Assembly: GCF_024806835.1 (NCBI RefSeq)
Contig: NZ_JANTYU010000007.1
Location: 1-64,000, forward strand
DNA from: Xanthomonas sp. 3793
GTDB lineage: Bacteria > Pseudomonadota > Gammaproteobacteria > Xanthomonadales > Xanthomonadaceae
Length of the DNA: 64,000 bases
Direction: 5' to 3'
Translations under genes and position numbers: made by a program
Notes under the pieces: generated by a model
What the model saw: only the letters and a program-made list of their open reading frames with translations
Databases searched by the model: none
What the model was told of the DNA's origin: nothing
Shown here: one piece after another, positions 18,842 through 27,494 of the stretch
Numbering within the stretch: position 1 is the first letter of the stretch
How the letters are laid out: each line of letters starts with the position of its first letter

Positions 18842-19873
18842 TTAACGCGCCGACAGTTCTGCCCGGATGATGTCCGCGCCCGCACTGAGGGCCTTGAGCT
18901 TGCCCCTTGCGACGTCCCGGGCAAGCGGCGCCATCCCGCAGTTGGTGGACGGGTAGAGCTTGTCGGCATCGACAAAGCGAAGCGCCTTGCGCAGCGTATC
19001 GGCTACTTCCTCCGCTGTTTCGATCGTGGTGCTTGCCACGTCGATGGCCCCGACCATTACCTTCTTGCCGCGCACCAGTTCGATCAGATCGATCGGCACG
19101 TGCGAGTTGTGGCACTCCAGCGAGACGATGTCGATGCTGGACGCCTGCAGCTTGGGGAACGACTCTTCGTACTGACGCCATTCCGAGCCCAGGGTCTGCT
19201 TCCAGTCGGTATTGGCCTTGATGCCGTAGCCATAGCAGATATGGACGGCAGTCTCGCACTTGAGCCCTTCCACCGCGCGTTCGAGGGTGGCAACCCCCCA
19301 GTCGTTGACCTCGTCGAAGAAGACGTTGAAGGCCGGCTCGTCGAACTGGATGATATCCACGCCGGCCGCTTCCAGCTCCTTCGCTTCCTCATTGAGGATC
19401 TTCGCAAATTCCCATGCCAGCTTTTCGCGGCTTTTGTAGTGCGCGTCGAACAGGGTATCGATCATCGTCATGGGGCCAGGCAGCGCCCATTTGATCGGCT
19501 GCGCGGTCTGCTGGCGCAGGAACCTGGCATCGTCCACGAAGACAGGCCTGGGGCGGCTCACCGCACCAACGACGGTGGGGACGCTGGCGTCGTAGCGGTT
19601 GCGGATCCTGACGGTCTCGCGCTTTTCGAAATCGACGCCGCTGAGGTGCTCGATGAAGGTGGTGACGAAATGCTGGCGGGTCTGCTCGCCGTCGCTGACG
19701 ATATCGATGCCGGCGTGCTGCTGTTCCTGCAGCGACAGGCGCAATGCGTCCTGCTTGCCTTCGCTCAGTTCCTCGTCCTGCAGCTTCCAGGGCGACCAGA
19801 GTTTTTCCGGCTGCGCGAGCCAGGACGGCTTGGGCAGGCTGCCGGCGGTGGAGGTGGGGAGCAGCTTTTTCAT
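18842..19873 (-). CDS. mesD: Methionine synthase MesD-like (MetE catalytic domain only)
   Basis: 343 residues, equal to the C-terminal half of cobalamin-independent methionine synthase without the N-terminal folate-binding half. Zinc ligands are conserved: His211 and Cys213 (AVHICYG), Glu253 (SLECHNS) and Cys312 (STNCGM); the substrate aspartate lies in QFDEPAF (Asp178). Adjacent DUF1852/MesX places it in the MesD family, which was reported to make methionine from homocysteine only together with MesX and oxygen. The mesX stop lies 28 bases upstream. Methyl donor for this family is unsettled; an MTHFR-like gene across the divergent promoter is suggestive. Confidence 0.85.
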   Translation of the reverse strand: MKKLLPTSTAGSLPKPSWLAQPEKLWSPWKLQDEELSEGKQDALRLSLQEQQHAGIDIVSDGEQTRQHFVTTFIEHLSGVDFEKRETVRIRNRYDASVPTVVGAVSRPRPVFVDDARFLRQQTAQPIKWALPGPMTMIDTLFDAHYKSREKLAWEFAKILNEEAKELEAAGVDIIQFDEPAFNVFFDEVNDWGVATLERAVEGLKCETAVHICYGYGIKANTDWKQTLGSEWRQYEESFPKLQASSIDIVSLECHNSHVPIDLIELVRGKKVMVGAIDVASTTIETAEEVADTLRKALRFVDADKLYPSTNCGMAPLARDVARGKLKALSAGADIIRAELSAR

Positions 19874-19901
19874 GATGAGTGATGTCTTGCGTTCTTGTTG
19901 A

Positions 19902-20885
19902 TTAGACAGCGTGGTGGGAAACCCACTGCGCGAGAATCTTGCCGTAGGGCCTGATGAAGTGCTCCTCGGTGAATTTGCCCTGCGTCACCGCGAGCTGGCT
20001 GCGCTCTTCCCGGTCGTAGACGATCTGGGTAGAGGAATAATCCTGATGCTTCAGGCTCGGCTGGTAGATAGCCCCCGCCGCGGAATTGGCGTTGTAGATC
20101 TCCGGGCGGTAAATCTTCTGGAACGTCTCCATGGTGCTGATGGTGCCGATCAGCTCCAGATTGGTGTAGTCGTTGAGCAGGTCGCCGAAGAAGTAAAAAG
20201 CCAACGGGGCGACGCTGTTGGGAGGCATGAAGTAGCGCACCCGCAGGCCCATCTTCTCGAAGTAGCGATCGGTCAGGGAAAATTCGTCCTGCCGGTACTC
20301 GATGCCGAGCACGGGGTGCCGGTTTCCCGTTCGGTGATAGACCCTGCTGCTGGAGACGCTGATGCAGATGACAGGCGGTTTGGCGAAACGCGCGCTATAG
20401 GCGTCCGAGTTCACGAAATGCTTGAACAACTGTCCATGCAGGCTGCCGAAATCGTCCGGGATGCCGAATGCGGACCTGTCCTGGTTGTGGGCGGGCAGCA
20501 GCACGCTGAAATCGTAGTCGCGGACGTAGGAGGAAAAGTTGTTTCCTGCGATGCCATCGATGCGCGCGCCGGTCGTTCTGTCGAGGATGTTGGTCTTGAG
20601 GATCTCGATCAACGGAAACTCATCGCCCCGTTCGCTCCCGGCAACCGTCATCTGCACCGAGATGATGTCCAGTTCCACAGCGTAGCGGTCGCGCCTGGGG
20701 TTATCCCAATGCGCAAGGTCGTTGAAGCGGTTGTTGATCATCGCAAGCGTGTTGCGCAAGTTTTCCTGGCGACGCTCACCCCTGGCGAGGTTGGCGAAGT
20801 TCGTGGTGTTGCGCGTATTGCCCGCGGGACGATAGTCCTCGTCGAAGCGGAGGCTCTTGATGCCGAAGGTGAATTCTTGAGTCAT
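19902..20885 (-). CDS. mesX: MesX (DUF1852), partner of the MesD methionine synthase
   Basis: 327 residues starting MTQEFTFGIKSLRFDEDYRP. The strings RNTTNFANLARGERRQENLRNTL, MINNRFNDLAHWDNP, DRYAVELDIISV and EHFIRPYGKILAQWVSHH mark DUF1852. This family was shown in Acinetobacter to be required, with oxygen, for methionine formation by MesD. Biochemical role is not known; redox or methyl-donor handling are options. It lies between an msuE-like flavin reductase and mesD on the same strand, so reduced flavin may be its electron source (inference). Confidence 0.85.
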   Translation of the reverse strand: MTQEFTFGIKSLRFDEDYRPAGNTRNTTNFANLARGERRQENLRNTLAMINNRFNDLAHWDNPRRDRYAVELDIISVQMTVAGSERGDEFPLIEILKTNILDRTTGARIDGIAGNNFSSYVRDYDFSVLLPAHNQDRSAFGIPDDFGSLHGQLFKHFVNSDAYSARFAKPPVICISVSSSRVYHRTGNRHPVLGIEYRQDEFSLTDRYFEKMGLRVRYFMPPNSVAPLAFYFFGDLLNDYTNLELIGTISTMETFQKIYRPEIYNANSAAGAIYQPSLKHQDYSSTQIVYDREERSQLAVTQGKFTEEHFIRPYGKILAQWVSHHAV

Positions 20886-21048
20886 TGCGAGCTGACGCCT
20901 TGTTTCCGAGATGAGACGGGCGGGCTTGCCTGCACAGGCGGCGATGCCTGCTGGAGGGAGCCCGGAAATCCGGATCGGCAGGCGATCGCCCGCTGATCCG
21001 GTGGCCGGCAAAGGGCGTTGCGGCCCGCCGGCCTTGGCCGACTGGCCC

Positions 21049-21645
21049 TCAGGCTGCGGCCACGTTTTGTGCTGCGTCGATGGTGCCTGCCGGCCGCGTC
21101 AATGCGATCAGCGGCAGTGCGCGCTGCACTGCCAGCCTGGCGCGCTCGGCCAGGGCCTCGTTGTGCACGCGGTAGTCCAGGAAGTCGCGGTCGGTGGCGT
21201 AGACGCCCAGCGGCAACGTGCGCGCCTGGAAGAAACTGAAAAGTGGCCGCAGCTGGTGATCGATCACCAGCGCATGACGCTCGCTGCCGCCGGTTGCCGC
21301 CAACAGGATGGGCGTGTCGATCAAGGCATCCTGATGGATGAAGTCGAAGAAATGCTTGAACAACCCGGTGAAGGAACCGCGATAGACCGGCGTGGTCACC
21401 ACCACAACGTCGGCCTGCTCCACCGCCGACAGTGCCTGCTCCACCGTTGCCGGCAGCTGCGAGCGCCACATCGCACCAGCAAACTGCGGTGCCAACGCTC
21501 CGAGTTCGACCAGCTGTTGCTCGCACGGCACCGCATCGGCGATCAAGGCCAGCAGGTGCTCGGCCAGGGCGACGGCCTTGGAGGGACGTTGCAGCCCGCC
21601 GGAGACGGCGACGACGCGGAGCGGGTGTGGCACGTTGACAGTCAT
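21049..21645 (-). CDS. msuE: MsuE-like NAD(P)H:FMN reductase
   Basis: 198 residues with a flavodoxin-like fold: VVAVSGGLQRPSKAVALAEHL (phosphate-binding loop), VVVVTTPVYRGSFTGLFKHFFD and LLAATGGSERHALVIDHQLRPLFSFF. These match the NADPH-dependent FMN reductases of the MsuE/SsuE family that feed FMNH2 to two-component monooxygenases. Here no sulfonate monooxygenase is adjacent; instead the gene heads the mesX-mesD unit (gap 163 bases). It starts 97 bases from the divergent MetR-like gene. Confidence 0.8.
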   Translation of the reverse strand: MTVNVPHPLRVVAVSGGLQRPSKAVALAEHLLALIADAVPCEQQLVELGALAPQFAGAMWRSQLPATVEQALSAVEQADVVVVTTPVYRGSFTGLFKHFFDFIHQDALIDTPILLAATGGSERHALVIDHQLRPLFSFFQARTLPLGVYATDRDFLDYRVHNEALAERARLAVQRALPLIALTRPAGTIDAAQNVAAA

Positions 21646-21742
21646 GCGGGGCGGCCTAGAACGACGAGTCCTGATGCTAGGGCTCGCATTCGATGAAGTA
21701 AAATGGTGTTATTTCAACAATCCATGAATTCGGATCATCTGA
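21646..21742. promoter_or_regulatory. Divergent promoter of msuE-mesX-mesD and metR
   Basis: 97 bases, AT-richer than the surroundings. It contains TGAAGTAAAATGGTGTTATTTCA (TGAA and TTCA arms) and a second TGAATTCGGATCATCTGAA stretch next to the metR start. MetR of enterobacteria recognises TGAA-N5-TTCA; here the arms are present but the spacing differs, so assignment as the LysR binding region is provisional. Confidence 0.4.
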
Positions 21743-22657
21743 ATGCTTGAGCGCATCCATCTCACCATCGTCCAGCAGGTCGAACAGCAAGGCTCGCTGA
21801 CCGCCGCCGCCGGCGTACTGAACCTGACCCAGTCGGCGCTGAGCCACAGCATGAAGAAGCTGGAGCAGCAGCTGGGCACCGACGTCTGGCTGCGCGAGGG
21901 GCGCAGCCTGCGCCTGACCCAGGCCGGCCAGTACCTGCTGGCGGTGGCCAACCGGGTGCTGCCGCAACTGGACCTGGCCGAAGAGCGCCTGGGGCAGTTC
22001 GCACAGGGCGAACGCGGCGCGCTGCGTATCGGCATGGAGTGCCACCCCTGCTACCAGTGGCTGCTCAAGCTGGTGGCGCCCTATCTGGCCACCTGGCCGG
22101 ACGTGGATGTGGACGTGAAGCAGAAGTTCCAGTTCGGCGGCATCGGCGCGCTATTCGGTTACGAGATCGATCTGCTGGTCACGCCCGACCCGCTGTACAA
22201 GCCAGGGCTGCGGTTCGAACCGGTGTTCGACTACGAGCAGGTGCTGGTGGTGGCCAAGAGCCATGCGCTGGCGTCGGCTGCCTACGTCAGGCCCCAGCAG
22301 CTGACGCGCGAAGTGCTCATCAGCTATCCGGTGGACCTTGAGCGCCTGGACATCTACAGCCAGTTCCTGTTGCCGGCCGGTGTCACGCCCAGGCGCCACA
22401 AGGCCATCGAAACCACCGACATCATGATGCAGATGGTGGCCAGCGGCCGCGGCGTGGCCGCCATGCCGCGCTGGCTGGTGGAGGAATACGCCTCCAGGAT
22501 GGAGGTGGTGCCGGTGCGGCTGGGCGCGCGCGGCATCCCCAAGCAGATCTTCCTGGGCGCACGCGAAGCGGATATCGCCGTCGACTACCTGCGTGCCTTC
22601 ATCGAACTGGCGCGCCAGCCTGCCAATGGCACCGCCATGACACCCGAAGCCCACTGA
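21743..22657 (+). CDS. metR: MetR-like LysR family regulator
   Basis: 304 residues. LysR helix-turn-helix at 1-60 (QQGSLTAAAGVLNLTQSALSHSMKKLEQQLG) and an effector domain with MECHPCYQWLLKL, DVDVKQKFQFGGIGALFGYEIDLLVTPDPLYKPGL and VASGRGVAAMPRWLVEEYA. MECHxCxxWL and DLVxxxDPxxxxGL are typical of MetR, which senses homocysteine and controls methionine genes. Divergence from the msuE-mesX-mesD operon and co-direction with an MTHFR-like gene agree. Confidence 0.85.
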   Translation: MLERIHLTIVQQVEQQGSLTAAAGVLNLTQSALSHSMKKLEQQLGTDVWLREGRSLRLTQAGQYLLAVANRVLPQLDLAEERLGQFAQGERGALRIGMECHPCYQWLLKLVAPYLATWPDVDVDVKQKFQFGGIGALFGYEIDLLVTPDPLYKPGLRFEPVFDYEQVLVVAKSHALASAAYVRPQQLTREVLISYPVDLERLDIYSQFLLPAGVTPRRHKAIETTDIMMQMVASGRGVAAMPRWLVEEYASRMEVVPVRLGARGIPKQIFLGAREADIAVDYLRAFIELARQPANGTAMTPEAH

Positions 22658-22761
22658 CGGACATCACCACAACGCGCGCGCGCGCTGGCGCTTTTCCAGC
22701 TCGATCGGAGTGGACACACCTCAGCCACCCAATCATCACCTCAGAACGGCAAGAGCCTTTG

Positions 22762-23634
22762 ATGTCTCCGGATACGCCCCGCCTGGCCAGCACCATCACC
22801 GACGCCTATTCCCTGGAGATCGGCGCAACCGACATTGCCGGGCTGACCGCGGCGGCGCCTCGGATCATGCGCGGCTCGACCATTGCCATCCCCTACCTGC
22901 CCAACCAGGACGACGACGCGCGACTGGCCGCTGCACGGAGGGTGCACACACTCGGCTTTCAGCCGATGCCGCACCTGTCCGCGCGCCGCATCGCCTCGCG
23001 CGAGGAGCTCCACACCTTCGTCAGGCGCGCCGTCGATGAGGCCGGCGTCGAGCGTTGCCTGGTGATTGCGGGCGATCCACCCGCTCCGAGAGGGCCGTTT
23101 GCGGACAGCTTGTCGCTGATCGCTACCGGGATCTTCAAGCGCTGCGGCATCCGGACCATCGCCGTGGCGGGGCATCCGGACGGACATCCGGACATGCCTG
23201 CGGCCGACCAATGGGATGTGCTGGAACGCAAGTGTCGCAGCATCGCCGAGCGCGGCATGACGCCGCTGATCGTCACCCAGTTCGCCTTCGACGCCGACCT
23301 GGTGCTGGCGTGGTTGCAGGCGCTGCGCGCGCGTGGCATCGAACATCGCGTGCGTGTGGGCGTTCCCGGTCCCGCGGGCGTGGCGGTGCTCGCACGCTAT
23401 GCCGCACGCTGCGGTGTCGGCGCCTGTGCATCGATGCTGTCCAAGTACGGCATCTCGCTCGGCAAGTTGCTGGGGACCGCCGGGCCGGATCGCTTTGTGG
23501 ATCGCCTGGCCACAGGCCTGACTGAAGCGCATGGAGACGTCAGCCTGCACTTCTATCCCTTCGGCGGCATCGCGCAGACTATCGCTTGGGTGGAGCACTA
23601 CCGCTCCAGCACCGCGCGGGTCAGCGCGGGCTGA
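22762..23634 (+). CDS. Methylenetetrahydrofolate reductase-like protein
   Basis: 290 residues with a TIM-barrel MTHFR-like layout: YSLEIGATDIAGL, ARRVHTLGFQPMPHLSARRI, RCLVIAGDPPAPRGPF (the usual L-x-L-x-G-D-P motif), TPLIVTQFAFDADLVLAWL (ITQxxFD) and LHFYPFGGI at the end. Canonical MetF also has PHLTC near the start; PHLSA here is related. These proteins reduce methylene-THF to methyl-THF with FAD. Its place beside the MetR gene and the MesD module suggests it supplies or replaces the methyl donor for that system. It is shorter and more divergent than housekeeping MetF, so another folate or one-carbon substrate is possible. Confidence 0.75.
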   Translation: MSPDTPRLASTITDAYSLEIGATDIAGLTAAAPRIMRGSTIAIPYLPNQDDDARLAAARRVHTLGFQPMPHLSARRIASREELHTFVRRAVDEAGVERCLVIAGDPPAPRGPFADSLSLIATGIFKRCGIRTIAVAGHPDGHPDMPAADQWDVLERKCRSIAERGMTPLIVTQFAFDADLVLAWLQALRARGIEHRVRVGVPGPAGVAVLARYAARCGVGACASMLSKYGISLGKLLGTAGPDRFVDRLATGLTEAHGDVSLHFYPFGGIAQTIAWVEHYRSSTARVSAG

Positions 23635-26425: not shown

Positions 26426-27277
26426 TCAGCGAAACACCACCGTACGATGGCCGTTGAGCACGATGCGATGTTCGACATGGCGGCGTACCGCGCGCGCCAG
26501 CACCAGCGACTCGGTGTCGCTGCCCAGGCGCACCAGATCGCGCGGGGTCATGGCGTGGTCCACGCGGGCGACGTCCTGTTCGATGATCGGGCCTTCGTCC
26601 AGGTCTTCGGTGACGTAATGTGCGGTGGCGCCGATGATCTTGACGCCGCGCGCGTGCGCCTGGTGGTACGGCTGCGCACCCTTGAAGCTGGGCAGGAAGC
26701 TGTGATGGATATTGATCGCGCGCCCGGCCAGCGCGCGGCACAGGCCCGGCGAGAGAATCTGCATATAGCGCGCCAGCACCACCAGATCGATGTGCAGGTC
26801 CTCGACCAAGGCGAGCAGCTGCGCTTCCTGTTCGGCGCGCGTGTCTGCGCTCACCGGCAGATGATGGAAGTCGATGCCATAGGACGCGGCCAGCGGTGCG
26901 AAATCGGCGTGGTTGGAGACCACTGCGACGATATCCACCGGCAGTTGCCGGCTATGGGTGCGAAACAGCAGGTCGTTGAGACAGTGGCCCTGCTTGCTCA
27001 CCAGCACCAGCAGCCGCGCGCGGCGACGCGCGTCGTGCAACTGCCATTCCATCCGGAACGCGCCTGCCAACACCGAAAACTGCTGTTCCAGGCTGGCGAT
27101 ATCGGTTGACGGCGGTTTTTCGAAATGCACGCGCAGGAAGAAGCGGCCGCTTTCGTCGTCGCCGAATTGCTGGGCATCGAGGATGTTGCAATCAAGATCG
27201 AACAGCAGGCCGGTGACGCGGTACACGATACCGGTGCGGTCGGGGCAGGACAGCGTGAGAATGTAGTCGGAGCGCAT
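26426..27277 (-). CDS. purU: Formyltetrahydrofolate deformylase
   Basis: 283 residues from the ATG at 27277 (an ATG at 27295 is also in frame). N-terminal ACT domain (YILTLSCPDRTGIVYRVTGLLFD); catalytic formyltransferase-like domain with LVLVSKQGHCLNDLL, YMQILSP, INIHHSFLPSFKGAQPYHQA (Asn-x-His) and GATAHYVTEDLDEGPII carrying the catalytic Asp. It hydrolyses 10-formyl-THF to formate and THF, giving formate for PurT and balancing one-carbon pools. Length equals that of the family. It is monocistronic. Confidence 0.95.
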   Translation of the reverse strand: MRSDYILTLSCPDRTGIVYRVTGLLFDLDCNILDAQQFGDDESGRFFLRVHFEKPPSTDIASLEQQFSVLAGAFRMEWQLHDARRRARLLVLVSKQGHCLNDLLFRTHSRQLPVDIVAVVSNHADFAPLAASYGIDFHHLPVSADTRAEQEAQLLALVEDLHIDLVVLARYMQILSPGLCRALAGRAINIHHSFLPSFKGAQPYHQAHARGVKIIGATAHYVTEDLDEGPIIEQDVARVDHAMTPRDLVRLGSDTESLVLARAVRRHVEHRIVLNGHRTVVFR

Positions 27278-27494
27278 CGGCGCAATGATAGCCAATGCAT
27301 GGCAGCGCGGGCACAGTGCTTGCGTCGGTAACCGTTACATTGCGACGCCGCGCAACTGACACGGCCGCCGCACCGCAGAGAAGCGCGACGGCACGTTACC
27401 CGCCGTGCTGCGGATCAGCCGATCAGCGCATGGCGGGCGTTGCGCTGGTGGCGTGCGTGGCCAAAGGCGATACGCATGCCACTGCCAATAAGGA

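Follow-up and report, generated by a model that had tools for sequence, protein, structure and literature searches.

The core methionine synthase MesD requires its partner MesX (DUF1852) as well as oxygen, and the mesDX genes of S. koreensis rescue metE and metF deletions of E. coli under aerobic conditions; the accessible part of the description by Price et al. (2021; PMC7857596) reports the methyl source of MesDX as unknown and a flavin reductase as frequently close to the two genes. In A. baumannii, as far as the accessible text of the source goes, B12 strongly lowers the DUF1852 and flavin reductase transcripts. Here, we describe a mesDX locus in a 64,000-nucleotide stretch of Xanthomonas sp. 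3793 (contig NZ_JANTYU010000007.1, positions 1 to 64,000; hereafter the window), in which the same two adjacent proteins are again found near a flavin reductase. The core MesDX system and its partnership with the reductase are already known from that work. The locus differs from the system of Price et al., in the part of their account available, in that its reductase is of the MsuE type and that a MetR-like regulator and a reverse-type homologue of methylenetetrahydrofolate reductase (MTHFR) are added. The new element is this reverse-type MTHFR at mesDX, recruited to such loci from two branches of its subfamily.

Its nearest solved relative is S6MTHFR of Sphingobium lignivorans SYK-6 (PDB 7xg9, 7xlf), a partner of LigM reported, in the portion of the source available, to oxidise 5-methyl-tetrahydrofolate (5-methyl-THF). 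Both proteins have the key residues in common and lie on the same side of our tree, whereas the window gene has mesDX as its partner locus and the window's genome yielded no LigM-like gene. The MetF2 proteins of Ruegeria pomeroyi (mtg locus) and of the chloromethane plasmid pCMU01 are divergent MetF paralogues too and are tied to the oxidation or use of methyl-THF, but they serve corrinoid methyl-transfer catabolism: according to the accessible parts of the respective papers, metF2 of pCMU01 is essential for chloromethane use, in a pathway opposite to the MetF direction (PMC3621897), and Ruegeria metF2 has been proposed to oxidise methyl-THF (PMC12478193). A further divergent MTHFR, ACIAD1783/PP_4638, was judged probably to do something else in the available text of Price et al. 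(PMC7857596). It likewise corresponds to PF02219 without the N-terminal part, and the A. baylyi genome (G446) gave a match at model positions 70-281, the range stated for ACIAD1783; the A. baylyi gene, however, does not adjoin mesDX, and tblastn with the window protein (E up to 1e-3) yielded no hit in the A. baylyi region L192, nor in L190 and L191.

The MTHFR-like protein of the window matched PF02219 at 34.3 bits (cut-off 24), over model positions 61-233 of 287 only, and stayed far under the canonical MetF equivalog TIGR00676 (a partial match of 38 versus 293.7 bits), while S6MTHFR (7xg9) proved nearer to it than canonical MTHFRs by both sequence and fold. In a tree of 62 rows, the reverse type was split from 10 canonical rows at 100/100, with a long-branch warning attached to this split. 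The window gene, 22 other mes-linked genes and a Delftia-type gene formed a 24-row clade (100/99), with a Rhizobium gene adjoining a GcvT-like gene as its sister (99/92), followed by six LigM-linked genes, of which two come from plasmids (Sphingobium and Novosphingobium), and all 31 rows united at 100/99. Since the sister and the next rows are GcvT- or LigM-linked, the window's mes clade is most simply derived from a demethylation module. The SYK-6 row stood outside this mes/LigM group, and the mesDX-linked gene of Rhizobium tropici occupied a separate branch on the side of the Mtg-linked rows; rows with MtgC/MtgD-like neighbours stand there in place of the Ruegeria and pCMU01 MetF2 proteins, neither of which is in the tree, and pCMU01 MetF2 shares 34% identity with the R. 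tropici enzyme. Left out of the tree were L060 and L104 (over-long starts), L118 (short, 141 aa), L194, L198 and L199 (repeats) and L193 (doubtful frame). The MTHFR residues that we take to be catalytic, numbered for E. coli through an Erwinia MetF row (Glu28, His88, Asp120, Gln183 and an aromatic residue at 223), are all present in the window protein and in the mes-linked rows (22/23 for Asp120, 23/23 for each of the others); the canonical group of this comparison comprises 10 rows, and letters of the reverse-type L180 may stray into its line. Judged by sequence, fold and tree, we assign the protein to the reverse type with high confidence, and by analogy to its characterised relative it probably works oxidatively in the cell.

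The linkage of this gene to mesX was surveyed in 80 named loci, the best 80 of at least 590 confirmed MesX relatives; as these are the ones nearest to the window's MesX, the frequencies are biased towards the window's lineage. An MTHFR-family gene was located within 5 kb of mesX in 26 of the 80, namely in Xanthomonas (9), Stenotrophomonas (8), Janthinobacterium (3) and once each in Burkholderia, Hydrogenophaga, Corticibacter, Bordetella, Achromobacter (a short copy) and Rhizobium, so that the grouping is not a matter of chance. An msuE-type gene was present within 5 kb of mesX in 32 loci, 25 of which carried the MTHFR-like gene, as did 1 of the 16 loci with a PF01613 flavin reductase and none of the 32 in which neither flavin reductase probe matched. 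The preliminary description of this DNA had made conservation of the flavin reductase and the MTHFR-like gene beside mesDX in related genomes a test of its reading; such conservation holds within the lineage and fails for mesX genomes at large: of 398 genomes drawn across the phylum, 44 had mesX, and the MTHFR-like gene adjoined it in four of these, the window's included (a fifth, G196, is perhaps hidden by contig ends). The gene at mesX is thus a minority trait of mesX genomes. In R. tropici the order is mesX-mesD-flavin reductase-MTHFR, and the same order recurs in G549, a genome that is absent from the tree and was placed on this branch by identity. Among 148 genomes of the genus, 34 had a family member and two besides R. 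tropici a close one (65-68%); the close relative in G461 and a relative on a Shinella plasmid had no mesDX adjoining. Recruitment to mesDX from two branches argues for a functional tie between the genes. No paper linking an MTHFR-like gene to mesDX was found in the literature searched; the survey of genomes for the SYK-6 gene set that Yu et al. (2025) are said to have made lay outside this scope, so the link may already be reported. Two cases of the MTHFR-like gene deserve mention on their own account: Xanthomonas phaseoli ATCC 49119 (G401) has equal-scoring copies at C1:44359 and C1:5171168, reflecting duplication or assembly overlap, and the mesDX-side gene of Achromobacter sp. MYb9 (L118) matched over 128 residues only and looks broken.

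The synthase itself conforms to expectation. MesD consists of the catalytic half of MetE alone, matching TIGR01371 at 425-753 of 754, in agreement with the earlier statement that it lacks the folate-binding half. Its zinc ligands are present as H211 and C213 (HICYG), E253 (SLEC) and C312 (NCG), equated with MetE H641, C643, E665 and C726 by motif and by eye rather than by structural alignment. With 88% identity to MesD of A. baylyi DSM 14961 (L128) it lies well above the level of about 55% taken for membership, and mesX adjoins it. MesX is the single PF08908 match in the genome; its AlphaFold2 model is of good quality (predicted local distance difference test 88, predicted template modelling score 0.89), and neither a Foldseek comparison of the model with the PDB, which gave no clear match, nor a VIA-align list, which was weak, below noise and mostly GNAT-like, pointed to a relative. 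A second MesD type occurs in L078, L082, L085, L087, L095 and L122 (and in L027, L044 and L050), being 56-58% identical to the window's MesD, versus 81-96% in the remaining loci with a full mesD; the MesX proteins beside it show about 61-75% identity. L051 (G082) has, besides a full-length mesX, a second site with mesX and mesD fragments, likely a remnant copy.

We tentatively favour a reading of the locus as a homocysteine- and B12-responsive methionine module with a folate-repair arm. MesX, together with reduced flavin mononucleotide (FMNH2) from the MsuE-type reductase and O2, would deliver a methyl group to MesD, which would methylate homocysteine independently of folate and B12; the likely participation of reduced flavin had also been suggested in the preliminary description and, in the accessible text, earlier still by Price et al. 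(PMC7857596). Under B12 shortage, MetH would fall idle and homocysteine would rise. MetF would make 5-methyl-THF, for which the exits sought and found are the split MetH, which needs B12, and the reverse MTHFR. The window's genome encodes this MetH and, elsewhere, a canonical MetF; CobI/CbiL, a marker of de novo B12 synthesis, gave no match above its cut-off there, and no PF01717 match besides mesD was found, which means that MetE is absent. For these reasons 5-methyl-THF would be expected to pile up while MesDX makes methionine, and the reverse MTHFR could drain it, presumably via its flavin adenine dinucleotide, to 5,10-methylene-THF; the enzyme may thereby safeguard the folate pool instead of supplying the synthase. 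Such a methylfolate trap occurs in bacteria when MetH fails, according to the available part of PMC5070874, and its relief is a possible reason for the presence of the reverse MTHFR at this locus. A search with a Sphingobium LigM-like query gave nothing at E 1e-6 in the window's genome, and no hit over 32 bits (28-31 bits in four) in the 21 genomes with a mes-clade gene, these being the window's, G094, G302, G393, the Delftia-type assembly and 16 named ones including the short copy of G412; of the 33 genomes searched, G196 and G431, apparently one assembly, were counted once. MetF is therefore the only source of 5-methyl-THF that was sought and found.

Several observations weigh against this reading. 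The MTHFR-like gene is missing beside mesX in 54 of the 80 loci and in 40 of the 44 mesX genomes. Methionine and folate enzymes were compared in 50 of the 80 genomes, which we chose ourselves: 17 of the 26 positive ones, with L118 counted as positive despite its short gene, and 33 of the 54 that lack the gene at mesX, among which G431 carries a mes-clade gene elsewhere, on a different contig, and other family members occur in G422, G424 and G430. Canonical MetF was found in 17/17 positive genomes and 30/33 others, and a MetH match in 16/17 and 32/33. MetE was no rarer in genomes that have the gene at mesX (6/17 versus 12/33 of those without it there, p = 1; 11/33 if one weak split hit is dropped), so a role in trap relief finds no support in the distribution; the de novo B12 marker was detected in 2/17 versus 8/33 (p 0.46). 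Since most mesX genomes do without the gene at this place, and 19 of the 33 that lack it there have MetF and MetH and no MetE, a reverse MTHFR is not generally needed. Stenotrophomonas mori (G404; L067/L199) keeps MetF, 87.6% identical to Xanthomonas MetF, as well as the reverse MTHFR, with no MetH or MetE detected, so that MesDX is the one methionine synthase detected in this species; its locus showed no metR-like gene. Relief of the trap leaves the retention of MetF in S. mori unexplained, and it is here that a direct folate link has its strongest footing. De novo folate synthesis has, moreover, been suggested to keep trap effects small in bacteria (PMC5070874, accessible part). Activity of the MTHFR-like protein is not assured either, because the position of E. 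coli Thr59 is Pro in 22/23 mes-linked rows (the SYK-6 enzyme has Thr) and Gln219 is missing in both; its gene also exceeds its neighbours in the ratio of nonsynonymous to synonymous substitution rates in 43 of 44 comparisons. The neighbour names LigM, MtgC, MtgD and GcvX, finally, are our own provisional labels based on Pfam and annotation, and the LigM-like genes were so called from Pfam (GCV_T) and record annotation, not by comparison with SYK-6 LigM.

E. coli MetR responds to homocysteine, and MetR controls metF in enterics. In the profile comparison, MesD, MesX, the MsuE-type reductase and the MTHFR-like protein received the identities first given to them, whereas the regulator, although MetR (NF011950) is its best model, scores below the cut-off of 382, for which reason we call it MetR-like only. 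Between the divergent units, a palindrome with at most one mismatch to what we take to be the MetR box consensus was present in 29 of 31 msuE-metR gaps (the window and 30 named loci), and in 28 of the 31 it began 17-18 bases ahead of the start of the metR-like gene, although the gaps range from 72 to 441 bases; across the window as a whole the motif was not enriched. This conserved candidate operator makes joint control of the two divergent units by the MetR-like protein probable.

Table 1. Features of the mesDX locus and its vicinity, in window coordinates.
Feature	Position	Strand	Evidence
mesD, core methionine synthase, 343 aa	18842..19873	-	NF006589, 703.7 bits (cut-off 392)
mesX (DUF1852), MesD partner, 327 aa from ATG 20885	19902..20885	-	PF08908, 612.7 versus 25 bits
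msuE-type FMN reductase, 198 aa	21049..21645	-	MsuE equivalog TIGR03566, 249.6 bits (cut-off 212.5)
MetR-box-like palindrome TGAATTCGGATCA, TGAA-N5-TTCA with 1 mismatch, candidate operator	21725..21737	.	between the divergent units
MetR-like LysR-type regulator, 304 aa	21743..22657	+	top NCBIfam model NF011950 (MetR), 220.9 bits
Reverse-type (S6MTHFR/MetF2-type) MTHFR homologue, 290 aa from ATG 22762; in-frame TTG 22759	22762..23634	+	PF02219
purU, 10-formyl-THF deformylase; nearby, outside the core locus	26426..27295	-	TIGR00655, 332 bits (cut-off 285.95)

The five genes of the locus (18842-23634; Table 1) are all open and intact, and the two divergent units, one with mesD, mesX and the msuE-type gene and one with the metR-like and MTHFR-like genes, are separated by 97 bases between msuE-type and metR-like gene. 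The closest other protein match was in Xanthomonas sp. 4461 for the MTHFR-like protein and in X. arboricola for MesX, and an Rfam scan of the window returned no family at its gathering score. A PurU-like gene lies within 9 kb in 6/9 named Xanthomonas mes loci and was not found in the other mes-linked loci, many of which span only a few kb on that side. In 11 of the 80 named mesX loci, queH (PF02677) lies between the metR-like and MTHFR-like genes, as in L061 (6987-7655; PF02677, 218 bits) and L087 (7618-8286); the hosts are 8/9 Xanthomonas plus Burkholderia, Hydrogenophaga and Corticibacter. The window has a mere 104-base gap at this place and no queH.

Rather than to folate repair, the enzyme could belong to a general one-carbon salvage apart from MesDX, in which 5-methyl-THF would come from an unrecognised demethylation route and the locus would be common to both processes only through the MetR-like regulator. 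This alternative survives best, and we consider it rather unlikely. It draws on the neighbourhoods of 20 relatives, 19 from genomes without a mesX match and one from the Delftia-type G196, whose mesX is on another contig. Fourteen of the 19 adjoin methyl-transfer genes, comprising five beside a LigM-like GCV_T gene (L162-L165, L170), six beside MtgD-/MtgC-like genes for pterin-binding and B12-binding proteins (L168, L171, L172, L175, L176, L179) and three beside another GcvT-like gene (L169, L174, L178); one (L166) has purU and an adenosylhomocysteinase-like gene as neighbours, and four (L167, L173, L177, L180) had no probe match within 5 kb. Among annotated plasmid loci, those of Sphingobium and Novosphingobium have GcvT-like, purU and folD genes close by, and that of Agrobacterium has a member of the aminomethyltransferase family. 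The window has purU, a late step of such routes, 2.8 kb off, and the Delftia-type assembly carries its metR-like and MTHFR-like pair (L181) on a contig other than that of mesX. However, the genomes with a mes-clade gene yielded no LigM-like gene to feed such salvage, and two branches gave rise to the tie with mesDX and the flavin reductase.

A reading of the protein as an additional MetF isozyme, reductive and governed by the MetR-like regulator, that raises 5-methyl-THF for MetH would be compatible with the position of the gene, which follows the metR-like gene and is co-oriented with it, given MetR control of metF in enterics, with the retained catalytic residues, the aromatic residue at 223 included, and with the frequent MetH of the positive genomes. 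It is nevertheless unlikely: all 17 of these genomes already possess canonical MetF, the protein groups with demethylase-adjacent enzymes and not with MetF, and MetH is equally common without the gene. The same holds, a little more strongly, for the idea that folate feeds MesDX, with the MTHFR-like protein supplying 5-methyl-THF or turning over folate-bound one-carbon units for MesX in an O2-dependent, B12-free methyl-folate route. The shared locus, recruited twice from different branches, and the enzyme set of S. mori speak for it; MesD, however, lacks the folate-binding half, the solved relative runs the opposite way, most of the 80 loci do without the gene, and S. koreensis mesDX rescued the metE and metF deletions without such an MTHFR-like gene (PMC7857596, accessible part). 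In view of two of these points, the direction of the solved member and the metF rescue, the preliminary description's view of the gene as a sign of a folate-derived methyl donor is not supported, while a folate link of some kind may exist, as S. mori indicates. That the reverse MTHFR takes part directly in the MesX reaction of this lineage, with 5-methyl-THF as methyl and/or electron source for its flavin/oxygen chemistry and the general methyl donor of MesX tied to the one-carbon folate pool, is very improbable, though the recruitment from two branches and the retention of MetF in S. mori would fit it.

The recruitment of a methyl-folate-oxidising type from two branches implies that methyl-folate turnover and MesDX are linked, be it for damage control, as in the folate-repair module that we favour, or in a more direct way. 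In the literature searched, we came across no further genetic system of bacteria dedicated to countering the methylfolate trap. Should the folate-repair reading be true, the reach of the reverse-MTHFR subfamily would grow beyond demethylation catabolism to include the synthesis of an amino acid, and there would be reason to doubt the label 'methylenetetrahydrofolate reductase' under which records from Xanthomonas, Burkholderia, Achromobacter and Janthinobacterium list these proteins.

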